Shown here: piece by piece, positions 1 to 37,774 of the stretch
Numbering within the stretch: the first letter of the stretch is position 1
Layout: every line of letters starts with the position of its first letter
From: a virus
Direction: 5' to 3' (one strand)
Virus record (IMG/VR): IMGVR_UViG_3300037119_002477
Location: 1 to 37,774 of that record
DNA length: 37,774 nucleotides
Position numbers and translations under genes: made by a program
Notes under the pieces: model-generated
Told to the model about the DNA's origin: nothing
Databases searched by the model: none
What the model saw: only the letters and a program-made list of their open reading frames with translations

Positions 1-126
1 CGAACACACGGAAAACGAGCGGCTGGCGCAGCTCGACAACTGGTCGGAATGCCTGGTGCATCTGTTCCGCGCGCAAATCGAATTCTGGAAGGCCGGCGAG
101 CGGCCGACGATCGGCGCCACGGTGCG
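1..126. repeat. Terminal direct repeat, left copy
   Basis: Bases 1-126 are identical to 37647-37772; after that the window ends in TC where the left copy reads GC. This is what an assembler leaves when a circular or terminally redundant genome is cut open. The repeat lies inside a gene (the helicase) and the reading frame continues correctly through it. That argues for a circular assembly overlap rather than a dedicated non-coding end repeat. Confidence 0.9.
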
Positions 127-490
127 GCTGTTCAAGACGGCGCTCGGCGACGCGATCGAGGAGACGCGCGCCAAGCTCGCCGCGGCCGGGCTCGGCATGA
201 CGCCGCCGAACAAGAAGCTCGCCGGCGCGACGGTCGGCCGGCATTTGCTGGCGGTCCCAATGAATGCGCGGGGCCGATCGGCGCTCGCGCGCGCCTTCGA
301 TGGCACGGAATGGGCGAGCGGAGGCTGGGCCGGCGCGCTGCGCCAGGCGCCGCCCGACGTGGTGCTGCCGACGCGCGGCCAGGAAAATCTCGTGCGCATC
401 GACGGCTACCCGACGCGCTGCTTCCTGGTCGATCTTGACGCGTTTGAAAAATCGCTGATGGAGGGCGGCGCCGATCCGCCCGCGGTCTAG
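2..490 (+). CDS. Replicative helicase/P-loop ATPase, C-terminal part (gene spans the circular joint)
   Basis: This open frame has no start of its own. It is the 3' end of the gene that begins at 36268 and runs off the right end of the window. Joining the two through the 126-base repeat keeps the frame and gives a protein of about 622 residues. The part here (162 codons, stop TAG) has no catalytic motif. It begins with an acidic, helical stretch (EHTENERLAQLDNWSECLVH), followed by a winged-helix-like tail region typical of the C-terminus of phage primase-helicases. Its stop overlaps by four bases the end of the convergent gene on the other strand. Role inferred from the N-terminal part: DNA unwinding at the phage fork. 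Confidence 0.85.
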   Translation, partial: EHTENERLAQLDNWSECLVHLFRAQIEFWKAGERPTIGATVRLFKTALGDAIEETRAKLAAAGLGMTPPNKKLAGATVGRHLLAVPMNARGRSALARAFDGTEWASGGWAGALRQAPPDVVLPTRGQENLVRIDGYPTRCFLVDLDAFEKSLMEGGADPPAV

Positions 491-1508: not shown

Positions 1509-1763
1509 CGTTACACTTTTCGCCAGCAATATCAGCCGCTTACGCGGCCCGTAACATGCGCGTTACAGGCGCGTTACGAAATTCCTCAATCAAATCAACG
1601 TTGTAACGGCGTAACGCGCTCAACGCATGCACGCGTACGCGCGCGCGCGCGCAATCGTACGCGCGCGCGCGTTTGCGTTACACACGTTACATACCCCTCA
1701 ATCCATTGATATAGTTGTTGTAACGTGTAACGCGGGCGCGCGTAACGCGATTTTTTGCGTTAC
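1509..1763. repeat. Cluster of twelve GTAAC/GTTAC motifs (iteron-like), candidate origin or packaging site
   Basis: GTTAC or GTAAC starts at 1510, 1551, 1562, 1573, 1603, 1611, 1677, 1686, 1720, 1727, 1742 and 1759, mostly within CGTTACG/CGTAACG. Three are exactly 11 bases apart (1551, 1562, 1573), one helical turn. Two forward copies (1603, 1611) and two reverse copies (1677, 1686) face each other across the alternating CG tract. The whole 1218-1833 gap holds no convincing gene; a 48-codon frame from 1460 overlaps the motifs and is not supported. The position just before the small terminase gene suits a pac site; the repeat architecture also suits an origin. Confidence 0.65.
1623..1676. other. 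Alternating purine-pyrimidine (CG)n tract, potential Z-DNA
   Basis: About 54 bases are almost entirely alternating purine-pyrimidine, including two long runs of CG repeats interrupted by CAATCGTA. Such tracts favour left-handed DNA under negative supercoiling. The tract lies at the centre of the GTAAC/GTTAC cluster, flanked symmetrically by two motif pairs. Confidence 0.6.
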
Positions 1764-1833: not shown

Positions 1834-2427
1834 ATGACCAGAACAGCCAACGGCTCGGGCTCGGCTCTCGGCGCGCTGGCGCAGTCGATCGCGCCGGACC
1901 GGCTTGGCCAGGATGACGACGCGCAGCTCGAGCTCCTCGGTTTCGACGCCGAATCCGATGGGCATTATGCGCGCCACACCGTCGCCGGCGGGCCGCGGCG
2001 GCCGGGCCGGCCGATCGGGCCGCAGGCCATGTCGCGCGACCTGGCGAAGCTGCTGGCGCATCGCGGTTATCGACATCCGGTCGAGTTTTTGAGCTCGATT
2101 CTGTCAATGGATACGCGCGAACTGGCGGCCAAACTTGCGGGTGACGGGGACAAGATCGGGCTCGTGACCTTCGACCAGGCGCGATCGGTGCTCGATTTGC
2201 AGCTCAAGGCTGCGAAAGAGGCGGCGCTCTATGTCGCCCAGCAAATGCCGAAGGCGGTCGAGATGCGGACCGACGCGCCGCGGGCCGTGGTCGTGATCCA
2301 TGAGGGCTCGGCCGAGCTCGAGCGCAGCGATACGCGCGCCATGTCAGCCTTCGAGCCGATCGAGCTTCAGGCCGAGCAATATCAAGGGCTTAGCGACCAT
2401 GATCGGGATAAGTCACAAGAGGGCTAG
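1834..2427 (+). CDS. terS: Putative terminase small subunit
   Basis: A 197-residue protein directly upstream of the large terminase gene, the usual place for TerS. The N-terminal 50 residues look disordered. Then come a basic stretch (RRPGRPIGPQAM, about 55-66), a helical region (DLAKLLAHRGYRHPVEFLSSIL, about 69-90), a second helical block ending LQLKAAKEAALYVAQQMPKAV (to about 142), and an acidic tail. The basic-plus-helical pattern and the 'HPVEFL...' block resemble small-terminase-like proteins of alphaproteobacterial podoviruses. AGGG lies 7-8 bases before the ATG. Its role would be recognition of phage DNA for packaging, perhaps at the motif cluster immediately upstream. The assignment rests mainly on position. 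Confidence 0.6.
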   Translation: MTRTANGSGSALGALAQSIAPDRLGQDDDAQLELLGFDAESDGHYARHTVAGGPRRPGRPIGPQAMSRDLAKLLAHRGYRHPVEFLSSILSMDTRELAAKLAGDGDKIGLVTFDQARSVLDLQLKAAKEAALYVAQQMPKAVEMRTDAPRAVVVIHEGSAELERSDTRAMSAFEPIELQAEQYQGLSDHDRDKSQEG

Positions 2428-2480: not shown

Positions 2481-2789
2481 ATGATCCGAGATCATCTGAT
2501 CGAGATCCGAACTGGCTCGAGCCACCCCCTCGAGGAGCTGACCTCGAGCACGCTGACCTTGCAGCAACGTCAACCCCCTCCCCCCCCCTCCCTTCCCGTG
2601 GGGCAGGCTCGGGCCGGCGCTTGGAAAACGGCGCGCCACCTCTCCACCAGGGGGGTATCGTCTCACACTCACAGGAATGAAGTCCGCTTCCAAACCTTCA
2701 TGTGGTTGAAAGGCGAAGAATTTTGGATCGGCGAATGGGGGTGCGGGGCGCGGGTGACAGGATTTGACACCCCAGGACCGCGGCCATGA
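2481..2789 (+). CDS. Doubtful 102-codon frame between terS and terL
   Basis: The gap 2428-2785 contains one open frame whose TGA overlaps the TerL ATG (ATGA). Its N-terminal half is low complexity, crossing a run of C bases near 2575-2590 that encodes consecutive prolines. Only the last 40 residues (containing FMWLKGEEFWIGEWGCG) look protein-like. Codon use is poorer in G/C at third positions than in the neighbours, and no Shine-Dalgarno is evident before the ATG. The overlap with TerL is the only positive sign. The gap may equally be leader sequence or a degraded gene; the C run is also a place where a sequencing error could hide a frameshift. Confidence 0.25.
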   Translation: MIRDHLIEIRTGSSHPLEELTSSTLTLQQRQPPPPPSLPVGQARAGAWKTARHLSTRGVSSHTHRNEVRFQTFMWLKGEEFWIGEWGCGARVTGFDTPGPRP

Positions 2790-4360
2790 CCGTCTTGTCC
2801 CGGGCGCAACTGCGGGAGCTCTGCGGGTTCGAGCCGCCCAAAGATCCGGTCTGGTCGCTGATGCGCTACATTCCGCCCGGCCCGGTCTGCGCCCGCTTCA
2901 TCCGAAGCATGGGACCGATCGACATGATCACCGGGCCGGCGGGCTCGGGAAAATCAGTCGGCGCGGTGTTCAAATCCATCCGGTTTCACGTGTCGGCCAT
3001 GCCGGTCTGCCGCGACGGCGTCATTCGCGGACGGCTCACCGTGCTGCGCGACAATTATCGCGCGCTCTACCGCACCACGCTGCGCACCTGGTTCGAGTTT
3101 TTCCCGCCCGACTATCAGGGTTCCTCCTTCTCGGGCGGCCAGGATCGGCCGGCGCAGCACGTCTTGCGTTTAGAGACCGTGCGCGAAAACAAAACCATTC
3201 CGGTGGATCTGACGGTCGATTTTTTCGCCGTCGGCGACGTCGCAATCGAGGAGCTGCTCAAGGGCTACGAGACGTCGTCGGGCTGGTGCAACGAGGGCGA
3301 CCTTCTCCACGAAAGGGTGATCCCGTTTCTCTATTCGCGGACCGGTCGCTATCCGCCGCGCGATATGCTCGCCGAAGGCGCCATAAGGCCGAGGGTGGTT
3401 GCGGTCGATTTCAACCCGCCCGACGTTGATCATCCGATCTGGCAGGCCGGAGTGCGCGGCACCTTCGATCGAAAAGCCGAAATCGAGGGCGAATCTTTTC
3501 TGCCCGCGATCAATTTTTTTCAACAGCCGAGCGGCCTGTCGAACGAAGCCGAAAATCGGGCGGGCAAGACGCGCGAAGAATACGAATCCGAAGCGCTGAC
3601 CTGGGGCGACCAGGACCGAAGGCGCTTTGTCGAGGGCCGGCCTGGCTACGCGCGCGACGGAAAGCCCGTCTACGAGTATGAATTTGACGAGCGCACGCAC
3701 GTAGCAGACGGCACGCTGAAACCGATTCCGCAGATCCCATTGCATATCGGATTTGACCAGGGCGGCAATCCCGCCGCGGTGCTGTTTCAGATCGATACGT
3801 TCGGCAAGGTGCGCATTTACGCCGAATGTGCGCCTGGTCCAGGGACCGGTATTGAGCGCTTCGCGGCGATGCTGGTGCCGATCCTCTCCTCCGAGCGCTT
3901 TCAAAACTGTCCGCCGGGCAAGTATGGCGCGGACCCGGCCGGCTTTTATGGCGCCGATCGCGAGAATGGCGAGCTCTCCTGGGCGCAGGCGATCGGGCTC
4001 GCGCTGGGCCATCACGTGATGCCGGCGCCCACCAACGAAGTCTCGCCGCGGCTCGAGGCGGTCCGGCTCGCGCTAAACCATGGCATGCTGATCGATCCGT
4101 CCTGCCGCATGCTGATCGGCGGATTTGCGGCGCACTACAAATACCGAAAAATCCGCGACGGGGTGGTCGATCGTTACGACGTCGCGCCGCACAAGAACGA
4201 TTACGCCAACCCGCACGACGCGCTGCAATATGGGCTCTTGCTGGTCCGCGGGCTCGCCGGCACGATCCACCAGGCGGCGAAAGCGGGGCGGCCGGGCAAT
4301 GTGGTCTCCATTGTGAGCGGAAAAACCGCGTCGGCCGATTTCAATGTCTGGCGCGTCTGA
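2786..4360 (+). CDS. terL: Terminase large subunit (packaging ATPase/nuclease)
   Basis: A protein of 524 residues, the normal size for TerL. The ATPase half has a Walker A GPAGSGKS at residues 50-57 and an acidic motif in GWCNEGDL (166-173) that fits the Walker B/catalytic Glu region. The RNase-H-like nuclease half shows three acidic positions: D324 in HIGFDQGGNP, D383 in GADPAG, and D478 in PHDALQYG. The protein pumps phage DNA into the prohead through the portal and cuts concatemers. The N-terminal 'GPAGSGKSVGA...VLRDNYRAL' pattern is that of T7-like/BPP-1-like podovirus terminases. The next gene begins inside its last 17 bases, which suggests translational coupling. Confidence 0.93.
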   Translation: MTVLSRAQLRELCGFEPPKDPVWSLMRYIPPGPVCARFIRSMGPIDMITGPAGSGKSVGAVFKSIRFHVSAMPVCRDGVIRGRLTVLRDNYRALYRTTLRTWFEFFPPDYQGSSFSGGQDRPAQHVLRLETVRENKTIPVDLTVDFFAVGDVAIEELLKGYETSSGWCNEGDLLHERVIPFLYSRTGRYPPRDMLAEGAIRPRVVAVDFNPPDVDHPIWQAGVRGTFDRKAEIEGESFLPAINFFQQPSGLSNEAENRAGKTREEYESEALTWGDQDRRRFVEGRPGYARDGKPVYEYEFDERTHVADGTLKPIPQIPLHIGFDQGGNPAAVLFQIDTFGKVRIYAECAPGPGTGIERFAAMLVPILSSERFQNCPPGKYGADPAGFYGADRENGELSWAQAIGLALGHHVMPAPTNEVSPRLEAVRLALNHGMLIDPSCRMLIGGFAAHYKYRKIRDGVVDRYDVAPHKNDYANPHDALQYGLLLVRGLAGTIHQAAKAGRPGNVVSIVSGKTASADFNVWRV

Positions 4361-30449: not shown

Positions 30450-30776
30450 CACCATGTGATTAGCGTGGACAAGTCACAAATCAGCGGGGATAAGCTTCAC
30501 GTGAAACGTCGCGCCTGCGGCCGTGTGACTAGCGCGAATCGAGCGGCGGCGGAGCGGCGCATGAATGACCATCTTTTTTGATAACCTCTCATGGAAGCTA
30601 TTGAAATCATTGGCCGCAGAAATAAGATCGTTACATTTGGATTGGCATATTATTGCGCGCTAAGTCTTTGATTGTATTCACTTGGCACGGTTGATGCTTG
30701 CGTGTGACTAGTCACAAATAGCAGTCACACGATCTTTGCAGGGCTGCACGGCTAAGGTTAGCGCGCATAGGTTCCG
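30450..30776. promoter_or_regulatory. Non-coding control region with TGTGACT/AGTCACA sites
   Basis: No gene is evident between the late terminator and the opposed terminator. The half-site AGTCACA or TGTGACT occurs at 30472, 30524, 30703, 30710 and 30723. Two halves form the perfect 14-base palindrome TGTGACTAGTCACA at 30703-30716. A TTCACGTGAA palindrome lies near 30497. The stretch 30560-30720 is markedly AT-rich for this genome and contains TTGGCACG...GATGC at 30682-30697, which resembles a sigma-54 -24/-12 element. The region could hold regulator operators, the phage attachment site, or both. Confidence 0.45.
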
Positions 30777-31891: not shown

Positions 31892-32007
31892 TCGAACTCC
31901 TCCCATCCGAACAGCCCCATTCCAAACAGCTTGTCGACCACGGCGACGGCCATCAGGAGGATCACCACGAGCCAATACCAGTTCTCGAAATCAATCTGGC
32001 TCATCAT
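31888..32007 (-). CDS. 39-residue single-pass membrane protein
   Basis: A very small gene directly after the integrase, joined to it by a TGATG overlap and to the next gene by TTGA. The product begins MMSQIDFENW. It has one membrane helix (YWLVVILLMAVAVVDKLF) and an acidic end (GWEEFD). A second ATG three bases later could also serve as the start. Short membrane proteins in lysogeny modules sometimes act in superinfection exclusion or toxin roles, but nothing here proves that. Confidence 0.55.
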   Translation of the reverse strand: MMSQIDFENWYWLVVILLMAVAVVDKLFGMGLFGWEEFD

Positions 32008-33236
32008 CACACCTTGCCTGCATACCAGGCCGCCATCTTGGCCATCGCCGTATCGGCCATCTCGGGATGCATGGCGAGATAATGCTTCAGCACGCTGGTG
32101 GCGCTCTCGAGAGAGTGGCCGGAAATGGCGCAGATCTCCGGCACGGTGCAACCCGCCTGCGCCAGCCAGGTGACCGCGGTATCGCGCAGATCCTGATCGC
32201 GAAAACCGGCGAGGCCGGGCGTCGGCGGCACCACCATCACGTCGTCGATCACGACGCCTTCGACCGCGGCCTGCCGAACCTTCGCGAACGTGTGCGAATA
32301 ATGCCAGGACGAAAACGGCGCGTCGGCCTTCTCGTCCCACACCACATGCTTGACGCTGATGTTGGCGCGGCGGACGCGCGCCGCCTTGAGCCTTGCCGCG
32401 AGCTCGGGCGTCTCGACGATGGCGACGCGGGCGCCGGTCTTGTGCTGCACGAACAACAACCGCCCATTGACCAGCCCGTCGAGCTGCAAGGCGAGCCGAT
32501 CGTTCTGGCGCTGGCCGGTGAACAGGCCGAGCATGATCGCGTCGCCGATCTCGGGCCGGCCCAGCGCATCCGCCGCGGCGACCAGGCGCTGCATGTCTCT
32601 TGGCTCGCCAACGCGGAGGCGTTCGTCGGGCTTCGCCATGCGATAACCGTCGACCGGATTTGCTTGCAGGCCGCGGGTCGCGGCATGGCCCTTGATGCGG
32701 CCCCAGGAAATCGCCGCCGAGAGGCTGGACCGGACGCAGCGCGCGATGTGCAGACCGCGCGCCTTCCAGATGCCATTGAATACTTTGTCGAGAACCTCGT
32801 GGTTGAGGTCGATGGCCGGGCCGTCGGCGGCAAGTGGGAAAACGGACTCGAGCACCTTCGCGCCCTGGGCGTAATAGCGCAGCGTGTTGGTGGACAACGC
32901 CTTGCGCTGCATCTTGCCATCGGCGACGCCGGCGAGGTCGGGCGACCGCAGCCAATCATGAAACAGGCGCCGCAGGCTCGCATCGTCCGGGACTTCCCGG
33001 CGCTCGCGGCGGGCGCCTCGCGCCGCCTTATCAGCCGCCGCCTTCTGCACCTTGGCGGCCCAGGCCGCCGCCTCTTGGACGCTGAACCAGCGGCCGTCCC
33101 AATGCTTCAGATCCTTGGGCTTCGCGCCCTTGGCGCGCGCTGACGGGCCGGGCGTATAGCGCGGGCGATACTGGATCTTGCCCGCCGCGTCGGTGTGCGG
33201 GCGCAAGGTGACATTCGGGATTGATAATCTGGCCAC
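32007..33236 (-). CDS. int: Tyrosine recombinase (phage integrase)
   Basis: A 409-residue protein with a GTG start and GAGG about ten bases upstream. The N-terminal 80 residues include an arm-binding-type region (RPRYTPGPSARAKG), followed by a SAM-like core-binding domain (about 85-190). The catalytic domain has R243 (TGQRQNDRL), K266 (VQHKTG), R351 (DLRDTAVTWLAQ), H374 (ISGHS) and the nucleophile Y386 (LKHYL). The usual His before the second Arg is replaced by Gln/Asp, as in many members. It inserts the phage genome at a chromosomal att site. It is divergent from the excisionase-like gene and is followed by coupled small genes. Confidence 0.93.
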   Translation of the reverse strand: MARLSIPNVTLRPHTDAAGKIQYRPRYTPGPSARAKGAKPKDLKHWDGRWFSVQEAAAWAAKVQKAAADKAARGARRERREVPDDASLRRLFHDWLRSPDLAGVADGKMQRKALSTNTLRYYAQGAKVLESVFPLAADGPAIDLNHEVLDKVFNGIWKARGLHIARCVRSSLSAAISWGRIKGHAATRGLQANPVDGYRMAKPDERLRVGEPRDMQRLVAAADALGRPEIGDAIMLGLFTGQRQNDRLALQLDGLVNGRLLFVQHKTGARVAIVETPELAARLKAARVRRANISVKHVVWDEKADAPFSSWHYSHTFAKVRQAAVEGVVIDDVMVVPPTPGLAGFRDQDLRDTAVTWLAQAGCTVPEICAISGHSLESATSVLKHYLAMHPEMADTAMAKMAAWYAGKV

Positions 33237-33738: not shown

Positions 33739-34043
33739 GCCGTCGCACCCTGCCGCCCCGCCGCATCAGCCACAATCTCACCCTGGTGCATGACGGAACA
33801 AAAGGCTCGCTGACCTTCTCGCGGTTCGACGAGGACGGGCTCGCCGAATTGTTCGTCGACTACGGCGCCCCCGGCTCCGACGCCCGAGCTTTCGCCCGCG
33901 ACGGCGGGATTTTGATCTCCATGCTGTTGCAGCACGGGATTCCGCCGACCGAGATCGTCGGCTCGCTCACCCATGACGACGCCGGACGGCCCGCGACGCC
34001 GCTCGGCAAGGCCCTCGCCAGCGCGATCGGCATGTGCGTGTGA
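33735..34043 (+). CDS. TSCPD-domain-like small protein
   Basis: A 102-residue protein. The pattern 'LTFSRFDEDGLAELFVDYGAPGSDARAFARDGGILISMLLQHGIPPTEIVGSL' and the end 'PATPLGKALASAI' match the TSCPD-type domain found at the C-terminus of ribonucleotide reductases and as free-standing phage proteins. In the free form the function is unclear; binding of nucleotide or modulation of host reductase is a guess. The Cys residues that name the family are not seen in the expected places. GGAG precedes the ATG, and the gene overlaps both neighbours by 1-4 bases. Confidence 0.65.
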   Translation: MSRRTLPPRRISHNLTLVHDGTKGSLTFSRFDEDGLAELFVDYGAPGSDARAFARDGGILISMLLQHGIPPTEIVGSLTHDDAGRPATPLGKALASAIGMCV

Positions 34044-34714
34044 TGGCGCATGACCCTACGTCAACTAGCGCTAGTCCGCCAAGCGGTAGCCCGTTGAACG
34101 GGGTTCGAGACGCGTCAGACCCCACAAATATGCCGATGGGGCATGCGCCTAGCGCAGTATTCAGGCTCCGGTCAGTCGAGGCGCGGCGGCTCGGAATCGG
34201 CCTGTCGATCGAGAAGCTGTGCGGCCTGGCGGGCATCGCCAGCAGCGGTTACCGCAACGCGCTGGCCGGCAAGCACCAGGTCTCGGACGCGGTGCTGGTC
34301 CGGCTGTCGATGGCGCTCTCCGGTCGGGCGCACGTCGAGCCTTTCACGCCGCCGCCGCCGCCGCGGCCATTGCTGCGCGCCGCCTATGAGGCGTTCCATG
34401 TCGGCGCCTGTCGCATGGTCGGCGTCGATGACGAGAAGGCGCGCGCCGTCGAGCCGGGGCGCGGCGGCATCGAGCTCCGCTTCAAGGCCGGCCTGGCGCG
34501 CCGCATCGCCATCTATGCGCTGGGCGTCAAGTTCAACCTGACAGGCCCGACCATCGCCGACATTGCCGGCGTCACCAAGGAATCGGTCCGGCTCGCCATT
34601 CAAGCGGTGGAGGAAGAGCGCGACCGCAAGGATTTTTCGGAGGCGCTCGACCGCATGGTTGGCGGCGCGACCGGCGAGACGGGAGGGCTGTTCGATGCTC
34701 GCGACGTCGCATGA
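34043..34714 (+). CDS. HTH protein with DnaA domain-IV-like C-terminus (replication initiator/regulator candidate)
   Basis: A 223-residue protein if it starts at ATG 34043 (TGATG overlap with the previous stop); GTGs just upstream and ATG 34131 are alternatives. After a flexible 40-residue start, residues about 42-95 look like a Cro/C1-type HTH (LSIEKLCGLAGIASSGYRNALAGKHQVSDAVLVRL). Following a poly-Pro linker, residues about 107-205 resemble DnaA domain IV. LARRIAIYALGVKFNL...TIADIAGVTKESVRLAIQAVEEE aligns with the 'AR.IAMYL...S...IG...G.RDHTTV..A...I' pattern of host DnaA. It lies before the primase-like gene, so origin binding is likely. The GTAAC cluster is a candidate target. Confidence 0.7.
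   Translation: MAHDPTSTSASPPSGSPLNGVRDASDPTNMPMGHAPSAVFRLRSVEARRLGIGLSIEKLCGLAGIASSGYRNALAGKHQVSDAVLVRLSMALSGRAHVEPFTPPPPPRPLLRAAYEAFHVGACRMVGVDDEKARAVEPGRGGIELRFKAGLARRIAIYALGVKFNLTGPTIADIAGVTKESVRLAIQAVEEERDRKDFSEALDRMVGGATGETGGLFDARDVA
34064..34075. promoter_or_regulatory. Perfect 12-bp palindrome near the start of the initiator gene
   Basis: ACTAGCGCTAGT is perfectly symmetric and lies in the first codons of the HTH/DnaA-like gene, in a part encoding an apparently unstructured peptide. ACTAGCGC also occurs after TGTG at 30527-30534. It could be an autoregulatory operator, or mark that translation really begins downstream. Confidence 0.35.
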
Positions 34715-35807
34715 GCCCGTCCGGCGGTTTCCGACAGTCGCGGAATTGCGCCTCAAGGAGCGGCTGATCGATCGGCTGTCGTCCCTGGTGTCGACACTTC
34801 TGCCCGGCGGCTACATGAGCGGCGGCGATTACATCGCGCCGGATCCGGTTCACGCCCATAAAACGCTGGGCAATTTCCATGTCCGGATGCGCGGCGCGAA
34901 AGCCGGTTCGTTCGTCGATTATGCGGGCGATCATCGATCGTTCCGCGACGGCGGCGACCGCGGCGACGTCATCGATCTGATTGCCTATGTGCAATGCAAC
35001 CGCAGCCGGCGCGAAGCTATTCGCTGGGCGTGCGATTGGCTCGGCATCGACAAAGAAGCTCAGGACGTGTCGAGCCATGACGAACGTCTGGCGACGGCGC
35101 GGCGCGCTCTCGCTCAATCGGAGAAGGTGAGCGAGCAAGCGCGCCGCGATCGCGGGCGGCGCATCTGGCATGACGCGGCGCGACGCATCACCGGCACGCT
35201 CGGCGAAACCTATTTTCGCGAGGCGCGAAAAATTCCGCTCGATGAAATCACTTCGCACACCCGCGACCTGCGCTTTGCGCGGCGCCTCAAACATTGGACG
35301 TCGGGCGAGTTCTTTCCGGCGATCGTCGGTTGCCTGCGCGCCCGCGACGGCTTGATCACCGGCATTCATTGCACCTTCCTGGCGCCGGACGGATCGGGCA
35401 AGGCGCCGGTCGACAATCCCAAACTGATGCTCGGCCAGGTCCGCGGCTCGGTGCTGCGCATTGCGAACGGATCTTCGCGGCTCGGGGCGGAGGATGCGGC
35501 GGCGGCCGAGCGGTCGGGCGTCCTGGCGTTGTGTGAGGGCCTCGAGGACGGCCTGACCATCGCCGCGGCGGCGCCCGAGGCGCGCGTCTGGGCCGCAACC
35601 TCGCTCGGCAATATCGGCAACGTCCCGATCGATCACCCCTGCGTCAGTCACGTGGTGGTCGCGGCGGACAATGACGCGAACGCGCGCGCGGCCGAACAAT
35701 TCGAGCTCGCGATGGATCAACTGCGCCGTCACGGCAAGCCGATCGCCGTGATGCGCTCGCCGATCGGAAAAGACTTCAACGATTGCATCAAGGGAGATGC
35801 GCCATGA
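34695..35807 (+). CDS. Toprim-domain primase-like protein
   Basis: A 370-residue protein; ATG at 34695 lies 20 bases inside the previous gene. Residues about 40-120 resemble the N-terminal primase fold (GGDYIAPDPVHAHKTLGNFHVRM, GSFVDYAGDH, GDVIDLIAYV), but the zinc-binding Cys/His set of CHC2 primases is absent. A helical linker follows. The Toprim domain occupies about 270-365: LALCEGLEDGLTIAAAA with its conserved Glu, VVVAADNDANARAAEQF with the DxD-type acidic pair, and GKDFNDCIKG. It should make or handle primers with the helicase encoded two genes on. The end overlaps the next start (ATGA). Confidence 0.85.
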   Translation: MLATSHEPVRRFPTVAELRLKERLIDRLSSLVSTLLPGGYMSGGDYIAPDPVHAHKTLGNFHVRMRGAKAGSFVDYAGDHRSFRDGGDRGDVIDLIAYVQCNRSRREAIRWACDWLGIDKEAQDVSSHDERLATARRALAQSEKVSEQARRDRGRRIWHDAARRITGTLGETYFREARKIPLDEITSHTRDLRFARRLKHWTSGEFFPAIVGCLRARDGLITGIHCTFLAPDGSGKAPVDNPKLMLGQVRGSVLRIANGSSRLGAEDAAAAERSGVLALCEGLEDGLTIAAAAPEARVWAATSLGNIGNVPIDHPCVSHVVVAADNDANARAAEQFELAMDQLRRHGKPIAVMRSPIGKDFNDCIKGDAP

Positions 35808-36267: not shown

Positions 36268-37774
36268 ATGTCGACGACGCCGCGGCTCAACCTCGTCAAA
36301 GCTCTGTTTCGCGACGCGGATGATCAGGCCGGCGGCGACGTCGCGCTGTTTGATCCGCAACCGGAGGAGTTGCGCGACGGCTATGGTCCGGGCGCCTGGC
36401 CCGGCGCGCCGTTCAACGCGCTGCCGCCGACATGCCAGGTCGTCCCCTTGGGCTACGATGGAGACACGTCTTACTTTGTCGGGACCAACCGCCAGGTCTG
36501 GGCGATCAGCAATTTCGACAACAACGCATTGTTTGGCCTGTTCGGCCTGACGCCGAATTTTCCACATTGGGCCTGGCCGCGCTTCTCGATGCCGAAGAAG
36601 AACAAACCGTCGCGCATCAACGGGCTCGAATACAACCAGGCCAAGCAATGCCTGCTGCGCGAGGTGCAAAAGTGCGGCGCCTACGATCCGGTCAACAGCG
36701 TGCGCGGGCGCGGCGCCTGGATCGATGACAGCGAGTCATTGCTCTGGCATTCCGGCGATCGGCTCTGGCGCATCGAGGATGGCAAGCGGACATGGTCGCC
36801 GCCGGCGAAGATCGGCAAGCATTTCTATGTCCAGGGGCATCGCACCTTCCACCCGTGGGGAGCGCCGGTTCCGGTCGAGGCGTGTCCGGCGCAGGATATT
36901 TTTCGGGCGCTGCGCTCGTGGCGATGGGGCCGGCCGATCGTGGACCCGATCTTCGCGCTCGGCCTGCTCGGCTGCGGCCTGATGTCCGGCGCGCTGCAAC
37001 ACCGGCCGCATGGTTTTGTCACCGGCGACCGCGGCACCGGCAAAACCACGTTGCAGGATTTTTTCCGCGGCGCCTGGGGCGCAGCCGCGATTGCGCTCGA
37101 GGACGCGACCGAGGCCGGCATTGCGCAACTCTCGCGCTATGACGTGCTGCCGATCAGTTTTGACGAGCTCGAGGCCCGCACCGACAATCGCCGCGGCGAG
37201 TCGATCATTAACCTCGCGCGCATCGCCTACTCGGGCGCGACCCGATTGCGCGGTTCTGGCGAGCATGATGCAAAACTGTTTCGCATTCGCTCGTGCTTCC
37301 TGTTCTCGGCGATCAATCCGCCGCCGATGACCGCCGCCGATCGATCGCGCATGGTCATGCTCCATCTCCATCGCATCACGGTTGACGCGATCCGGCCCGG
37401 ACCGCTGGGCAATCGCGACGATGCGATCGGCCGGCAACTGCTGCGCCGCATGATGGAGGGCTGGCAAGACTTTCAGAAAGGGGTCGAGGATTGGCGCGAG
37501 ATCCTGCGCCAGGCCGGGCTCAACGCCCGCATGCAGGACACCTATGGCGCGCTGCTGGCGATGGCCGAGGTTTTGGTGGGGCCGGAAACCCTCGAGGAGG
37601 CCGGCCTGCCGGTGACCGAATCCGCCGCGCTCGGGCAGATGATCGCCGAACACACGGAAAACGAGCGGCTGGCGCAGCTCGACAACTGGTCGGAATGCCT
37701 GGTGCATCTGTTCCGCGCGCAAATCGAATTCTGGAAGGCCGGCGAGCGGCCGACGATCGGCGCCACGGTGCGTC
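36268..37774 (+). CDS. Replicative helicase/P-loop ATPase, N-terminal part (continues at base 2)
   Basis: The frame starts at ATG 36268 and is open to the window end; in the circle it continues at 2-490, giving about 622 residues. The first 240 residues form a separate domain with Trp-rich motifs (NFPHWAWPRFSMPKK, EYNQAKQCLLREVQK). Walker A is GDRGTGKTT (253-261). Walker B is PISFDELE with D299-E300. A sensor-1 Asn is at about 350 (FLFSAINPPPM). This is the layout of phage and satellite replicative helicases paired with Toprim or AEP primases. Role: unwinding DNA at the fork or origin. No ribosome site is obvious; coupling to the upstream gene two bases away is likely. Confidence 0.85.
   Translation, partial: MSTTPRLNLVKALFRDADDQAGGDVALFDPQPEELRDGYGPGAWPGAPFNALPPTCQVVPLGYDGDTSYFVGTNRQVWAISNFDNNALFGLFGLTPNFPHWAWPRFSMPKKNKPSRINGLEYNQAKQCLLREVQKCGAYDPVNSVRGRGAWIDDSESLLWHSGDRLWRIEDGKRTWSPPAKIGKHFYVQGHRTFHPWGAPVPVEACPAQDIFRALRSWRWGRPIVDPIFALGLLGCGLMSGALQHRPHGFVTGDRGTGKTTLQDFFRGAWGAAAIALEDATEAGIAQLSRYDVLPISFDELEARTDNRRGESIINLARIAYSGATRLRGSGEHDAKLFRIRSCFLFSAINPPPMTAADRSRMVMLHLHRITVDAIRPGPLGNRDDAIGRQLLRRMMEGWQDFQKGVEDWREILRQAGLNARMQDTYGALLAMAEVLVGPETLEEAGLPVTESAALGQMIAEHTENERLAQLDNWSECLVHLFRAQIEFWKAGERPTIGATVR
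37647..37772. repeat. Terminal direct repeat, right copy
   Basis: Identical to bases 1-126. The final two bases (TC) do not follow the left copy exactly (GC), which may be an assembly edge error. Collapsing the repeat gives a circle of about 37,646 bp with the helicase frame intact. Confidence 0.9.

Follow-up and report, generated by a model that had tools for sequence, protein, structure and literature searches.

What is the function of a dense cluster of short repeats that lies directly in front of the terminase genes of a phage, and which protein reads it? The cluster belongs to an IMG/VR virus record of 37,774 nt, which was analysed over its full length and is referred to here as the window. 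A preliminary description of this DNA had considered iterons for an initiator, a packaging (pac) site read by the terminase small subunit TerS, and a supercoil-sensing Z-DNA switch. Of these three, iterons for an initiator are best supported, by the linkage of such arrays to a helicase gene and by their mirror symmetry, and we regard it as likely that the region is a theta-type replication origin read by the phage's own AAA+ helicase.

The pentamer GTAAC/GTTAC was found 24 times in the window, with 12 copies inside positions 1510-1763 and 12 across the other 37.5 kb. At the rate observed elsewhere, a stretch of 255 bp should contain 0.08 copies (Poisson P about 1e-22), so that the genome-wide count places the array far above expectation and the proposed cluster of twelve 5-mers was borne out. 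The longer word GTAACGC occurs 8 times in the window, and all 8 copies are inside the array. The array splits into a left half (1510-1615), with iterons at 1510 (-), 1551 (+), 1562 (-), 1573 (-), 1603 (+) and 1611 (+), and a right half (1677-1763), with iterons at 1677 (-), 1686 (-), 1720 (+), 1727 (+), 1742 (+) and 1759 (-). The spacings of these 6 and 6 sites are 41, 11, 11, 30, 8 / 66 / 9, 34, 7, 15, 17 (mirror P 0.0075), and the halves are nearly mirror images about position 1646, with offsets of 33/33, 41/42, 71/76, 82/83, 93/98 and 134/115. The three sites that had been described as exactly 11 bp apart are those at 1551, 1562 and 1573. It also held true that no gene covers the repeats: the array is intergenic, flanked by a gene on the minus strand (about 771-1217) and by terS (1834-2427, plus strand), the start of which is 71 bp from the end of the array. 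The terS product was searched against Pfam and PHROG and matched neither; its homologs are followed by terL, which in the window lies at 2786-4360.

Two pairs of sites had been said to face each other across a single alternating purine-pyrimidine tract of 54 bases. The facing pairs are present (1603/1611 on the plus strand against 1677/1686 on the minus strand, with a spacer of 61 bp), but the single tract is not, since it is broken at 1653-1656 (CAAT region). The central spacer (1616-1676) is an imperfect palindrome and contains alternating purine-pyrimidine (CG) runs that are Z-DNA-prone. These runs, of 31 nt (1623-1653) and 17 nt (1656-1672), are the two longest in the window, the next one having 13 nt. 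Each half in addition harbors an AT-rich segment, at 1578-1602 in the left half (GC 0.32), a candidate melting region, and at 1691-1719 in the right half (GC 0.34), and the sequence CCTCAATC is common to both. When GC skew was examined across the window, no clear switch was detected at the array.

The first and last 128 bases of the record (1-128 and 37647-37774) are identical apart from one mismatch. Because of this overlap the record, as judged from its sequence, is a circular genome, complete at 37,646 bp. Joining the ends of the circular genome revealed a gene that had been invisible to the preliminary description: an AAA+ helicase of 622 amino acids, the proposed initiator, encoded on the plus strand at 36268-37774 and, after the 128-bp overlap, at 129-490. 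The protein contains the Walker A motif GDRGTGKTT and matched DUF5906/AAA weakly. Its 3' part (2-490, plus strand) corresponds to a C-terminal domain (residues 461-622) that is a predicted winged helix and the proposed iteron reader. Upstream of the helicase, a 160-amino-acid gene and a DNA primase gene (34563-35807, plus strand; DUF7146 and Toprim_3, phrog_510) were found, the latter belonging to the replication module of the helicase. Downstream, 1,020 bp with two small genes on the opposite strand separate the helicase stop codon from the array. The phage is probably temperate, since the genome encodes an integrase-like protein (32007-33236, minus strand; Pfam PF00589, 27.0 bits against a cut-off of 27.1). 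A second small repeat cluster, which contains 5 of the 8 AGTCACA/TGTGACT copies of the window, is located at 30472-30723, close to the lysis genes.

When viral contigs were scanned with the pattern itself, the results pointed towards replication, but several systems were mixed. Dense GTAACG clusters were detected in many unrelated phages, both within initiator genes (Phage_rep_org_N and others) and at the 3' ends of genes for AAA_25 helicases. For bidirectional irregular clusters the counts were 31/115 with GTAACG versus 5/120 with the permuted control hexamer GATACG. Phage_rep_org_N was identified in 11 of 54 cluster-containing genes, PHROG replication-initiation families were found as well, and the neighbours of intergenic clusters include AAA_25 helicases and primases. 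Staphylococcus phage 29, Streptococcus phage SM1 and Enterococcus phage phiEf11 carry 7-9 GTAAC copies within their replisome-organizer genes. For L495, L496, L497 and L498, which are phages of Staphylococcus, Streptococcus, Listeria and Enterococcus, the GTAAC clusters lie within replisome-organizer genes and are probably embedded origins built on this core word. One further locus (L055, 3087-3316) encodes an AAA_25 helicase whose gene carries, towards its 3' end, an array of 12 GTAAC sites without an alternating centre; the gaps of this array, recorded as exactly mirrored (9, 8, 45, 23, 19 / 20 / 19, 23, 46, 8, 9), perhaps mark an independent origin of two times six sites. Two control loci, L464 (3711-4007) and L479 (10769-11065), have 12 copies of CGTATC in bidirectional clusters and are possibly origins of yet another word. 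Over the loci of the family to which the window helicase belongs, a scan for the hexamer GTAACG yielded almost nothing, because the word changes between lineages.

Four phages derived from the motif scans encode homologs of the window helicase, and an alignment of the five sequences was used as query for a motif-free search of viral contigs. At least 553 relatives were confirmed in this way, and 80 loci were kept. A k-mer scan of these loci detected an array in 72 and none in 8, so that a comparable cluster is indeed carried by related phages. The arrays mostly comprise 10-14 copies over about 240 bp, and in 58 of the 72 they lie at most 2 kb downstream of the helicase stop codon, while in 2 they lie upstream. 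With a stricter score, an array was found in 62 of 80 helicase loci compared with 3 of 94 control phage loci, two of these three hits being the control hexamer by which those loci had been selected. The pentamer itself varies by lineage and may be GTAAC, GGAAC, AGAAC, GCAAC, AGACA/GACAC (GACA), CTAAC, GTAGC, GAAAC, GGTAC or others. In L549 and L578 the order is rearranged to array-terS-...-helicase-terL, so that terS and terL flank the replication genes. In three records that have a related TerL and lack this helicase, L606 (4011-4214), L608 (193-393) and L625 (947-1114), the repeats upstream of terL are different and partly palindromic (CCGTA, GTATA, AGGTACCT).

The layout common to the family is modally 6+6, with mirrored spacing, AT-rich gaps in the halves and a central alternating tract. 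Twelve is the modal number of sites, seen in 29 of the scored arrays, that of the window among them. Of 64 non-redundant arrays, 44 have 5-7 sites on either side of their largest gap. The gaps are mirror-symmetric (combined Fisher P 1e-17) and mirror pairs are oppositely oriented in 250 of 361 cases (P 7e-9), although these combined P values overstate independence because the phages share ancestry. Symmetry is well illustrated by L528 (AGAAC; gaps 9, 11, 11, 41, 8 / 79 / 8, 41, 11, 11, 9), L511 (AGACA; 18, 11, 46, 8, 9 / 52 / 9, 8, 45, 12, 18), L523 (19, 11, 45, 9, 8 / 51 / 8, 9, 45, 11, 19) and L520 (GGAAC; 21, 12, 45, 8, 8 / 78 / 8, 8, 45, 12, 20). Across the family, the gaps of 28-65 bp inside the halves have a GC content of 0.46 versus 0.66 locally (P 3e-20), and the array centres, with a GC content of 0.65, are not AT-rich. 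In 58 of 64 arrays the alternating run at the centre is longer than those in other windows of its locus, and in 53 of 64 it is longer than in shuffled versions of its own spacer, with sequences that differ among the arrays. This conservation lends the idea of a Z-DNA switch some indirect weight. A literature search, with many subscription papers outside its scope, found no paper joining Z-DNA, phage, origin of replication and iterons.

This geometry bears on the idea that the repeats are an operator array for a regulator of divergent promoters, serving the gene at 771-1217 and terS. The divergent intergenic position would suit an operator, and one weak sigma-70-like site lies inside the array, but promoter matches are at chance level (1 found, 0.7 expected) and the helix-turn-helix (HTH) protein of the window is missing from most relatives. 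Together with the mirror 6+6 geometry, the AT-rich gaps and the helicase linkage, none of which is expected for operators, this makes a regulatory array very unlikely.

A more serious rival is the pac site, because the array is linked to terS more tightly than to the helicase. Here TerS would bind the pentamers and the terminase would start headful packaging at the array. terS was detected for 61 of the 72 arrays and its frame begins 0-600 bp downstream in 45; it usually lies within about 650 bp, a tighter synteny than that of array and helicase, and it stays near the array even where the helicase is 3-6 kb away or on the other side. The genome moreover assembles as a circle, as a circularly permuted headful genome would, and TerS identity predicts iteron similarity. 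DNA packaging runs one way, however, and a mirror-symmetric site carries no direction. Arrays also occur apart from terS: L188 has an exact 6+6 array between a (primase-)helicase gene and a minor tail gene and is without terS, in L135 the array is beside a predicted antiterminator gene with no adjacent terS, and in L600 it follows the helicase by 155 bp and precedes terS by 1.5 kb. Conversely, three records with a related TerS and no helicase found, which may be fragments, have no array. At the level of single alignment columns, finally, TerS follows the iteron no more closely than TerL or the primase does. The usual adjacency of terS and its covariation with the repeats thus stand, but packaging as the only function is argued against by the symmetry and by the relatives in which terS is not adjacent, and we consider a pure pac site unlikely.

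The site might instead be used twice, with helicase and TerS both reading the array and origin and packaging initiation being coupled. This would agree with the usual position of the array between the helicase and terS genes, and with the finding that TerS and the helicase C-terminus each predict iteron similarity independently. The TerS signal may, however, reflect shared ancestry with the neighbouring DNA, and the array is kept in relatives without adjacent terS; dual use therefore appears slightly less probable still than packaging alone. The replication origin read by the helicase is the reading that is followed below.

To identify the protein that reads the iterons, covariation over phage pairs was analysed. 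With the other proteins controlled for, iteron similarity showed a partial correlation with the identity of the helicase C-terminus (0.108; 6/300 permutations) and with that of TerS (0.129; 1/300 permutations), and no partial correlation with TerL, the primase, the helicase N-terminus or the helicase ATPase core. Columns tied to the iteron class above z 4 make up 20-28% of the C-terminal part of the helicase versus 6-8% elsewhere, with residue 597 giving the strongest signal. Among 50 representatives with less than 70% core identity, Q597 accompanies GACA iterons in 9 of 12 cases versus 1 of 34 for the others. The commonest residue at this position is K in the GGAAC class and A in the GTAAC class; the window helicase has P597, unlike the A that is commonest for its word. 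When only distant pairs were considered, residue 597 reached z 6.0 and a TerL column z 6.5, and since the TerL column scores as high, residue 597 is support and not proof; single-column covariation may partly represent shared ancestry.

The structure of the helicase C-terminal domain was predicted with confidence (pLDDT 87.8). Foldseek returned no match for this domain at E < 0.001, while a second structural aligner ranked TcpK first, weakly (Z 5.5; next unrelated entry 2.8), and residue 597 falls in a predicted hairpin that corresponds to the TcpK beta-wing. Comparison of the helicase profile with PDB sequences, a set that may lack the SaPI Rep/Cch2 chains, gave weak P-loop matches only and no solved relative. 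The preliminary description had proposed another reader, a DnaA-IV-like protein (34043-34714). This assignment did not hold up, as the protein matches Pfam HTH_31/HTH_3 only weakly and homologs were found in 12 of the 80 loci; of 10 records sampled, 9 of them with arrays, a single one had a homolog. A DnaA-box origin with a conserved DnaA-like reader was rejected, the HTH protein being missing from most relatives. The AAA+ helicase, whose gene is divided between the two ends of the contig, is the likelier reader and would act via its predicted winged helix, and, as far as sequence comparison goes, the iteron word probably changes in step with the helicase that reads it.

The following model builds on these results; in it, protein binding, the number of hexamers, the sites of melting, initiation in both directions and any part played by Z-DNA are inferred. 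The C-terminal winged-helix domain of the helicase would bind the twelve pentamers, six per half, and two hexamers would assemble head to head, one on each half-array. Opening of the AT-rich segments within the halves would follow, and the neighbouring primase (34563-35807) would start bidirectional synthesis. The alternating CG tract at the centre would keep the two hexamers apart and may absorb torsional stress by a B-Z transition or a cruciform. In its most far-reaching form, the proposal states that in a large phage family a double hexamer of the helicase is loaded by two six-iteron mirror half-arrays that surround a conserved tract able to form Z-DNA, that a supercoil-driven B-Z transition of this tract gates initiation, and that evolution has repeatedly exchanged the word along with the helicase wing but has preserved geometry and tract; we put this forward tentatively, as a conceivable but rather doubtful extension.

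Three features are new: a 6+6 mirror layout that runs through the whole family, a pentamer that has been replaced repeatedly, and an alternating centre that is conserved. If the interpretation is right, the replication origins of many uncultured phages (at least 553 helicase relatives) can be recognised by one layout, and the family offers a natural series of matched reader-word pairs from which it could be learned how a winged helix picks a pentamer. The 6+6 mirror layout directly predicts double-hexamer loading, and the conservation of the central tract would show by comparison, and with unusual directness, that a Z-DNA-prone element has a function in a phage origin.

Several known systems resemble parts of this arrangement. 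The alpha protein of satellite P4 is a primase-helicase with a C-terminal winged helix that reads the ori/crr iterons, whereas primase and helicase are separate genes in this phage. In origins of the lambda O and 80alpha ORF20 type, iterons are likewise read by a phage initiator, and GTAAC clusters are present in several replisome-organizer genes; the known type, however, sits in the initiator coding sequence, as for 80alpha, the origin of which was placed within a replisome-organizer-type gene by complementation (PMC5499656), while the array described here is intergenic and helicase-linked, and no replisome organizer was found when one was looked for in the window. TcpK of plasmid pCW3, the best though weak fold match of the C-terminal domain, uses the beta-wing of its winged helix to read tandem repeats (PMC6137059; PDB 5VFY/5VFX), but acts at a transfer origin and is not a helicase. 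SaPI Rep and SCCmec Cch2 are initiator helicases the C-terminal domain of which binds iterons downstream of their own genes, and their assembly as two hexamers was proposed (PMC7581432). The phage system shares with them an AAA+ helicase, short iterons downstream of its gene and a C-terminal DNA-binding domain, which in the phage is predicted. It differs in its larger arrays (modally 12 pentamers in a 6+6 mirror), in a pentamer that varies between lineages and in a centre that is a GC-rich alternating tract, with the AT-rich segments placed inside the halves. By analogy, the best reading is a phage origin that would work in the manner of the SaPI/SCC initiator-helicase origins, yet is set apart from their membership.
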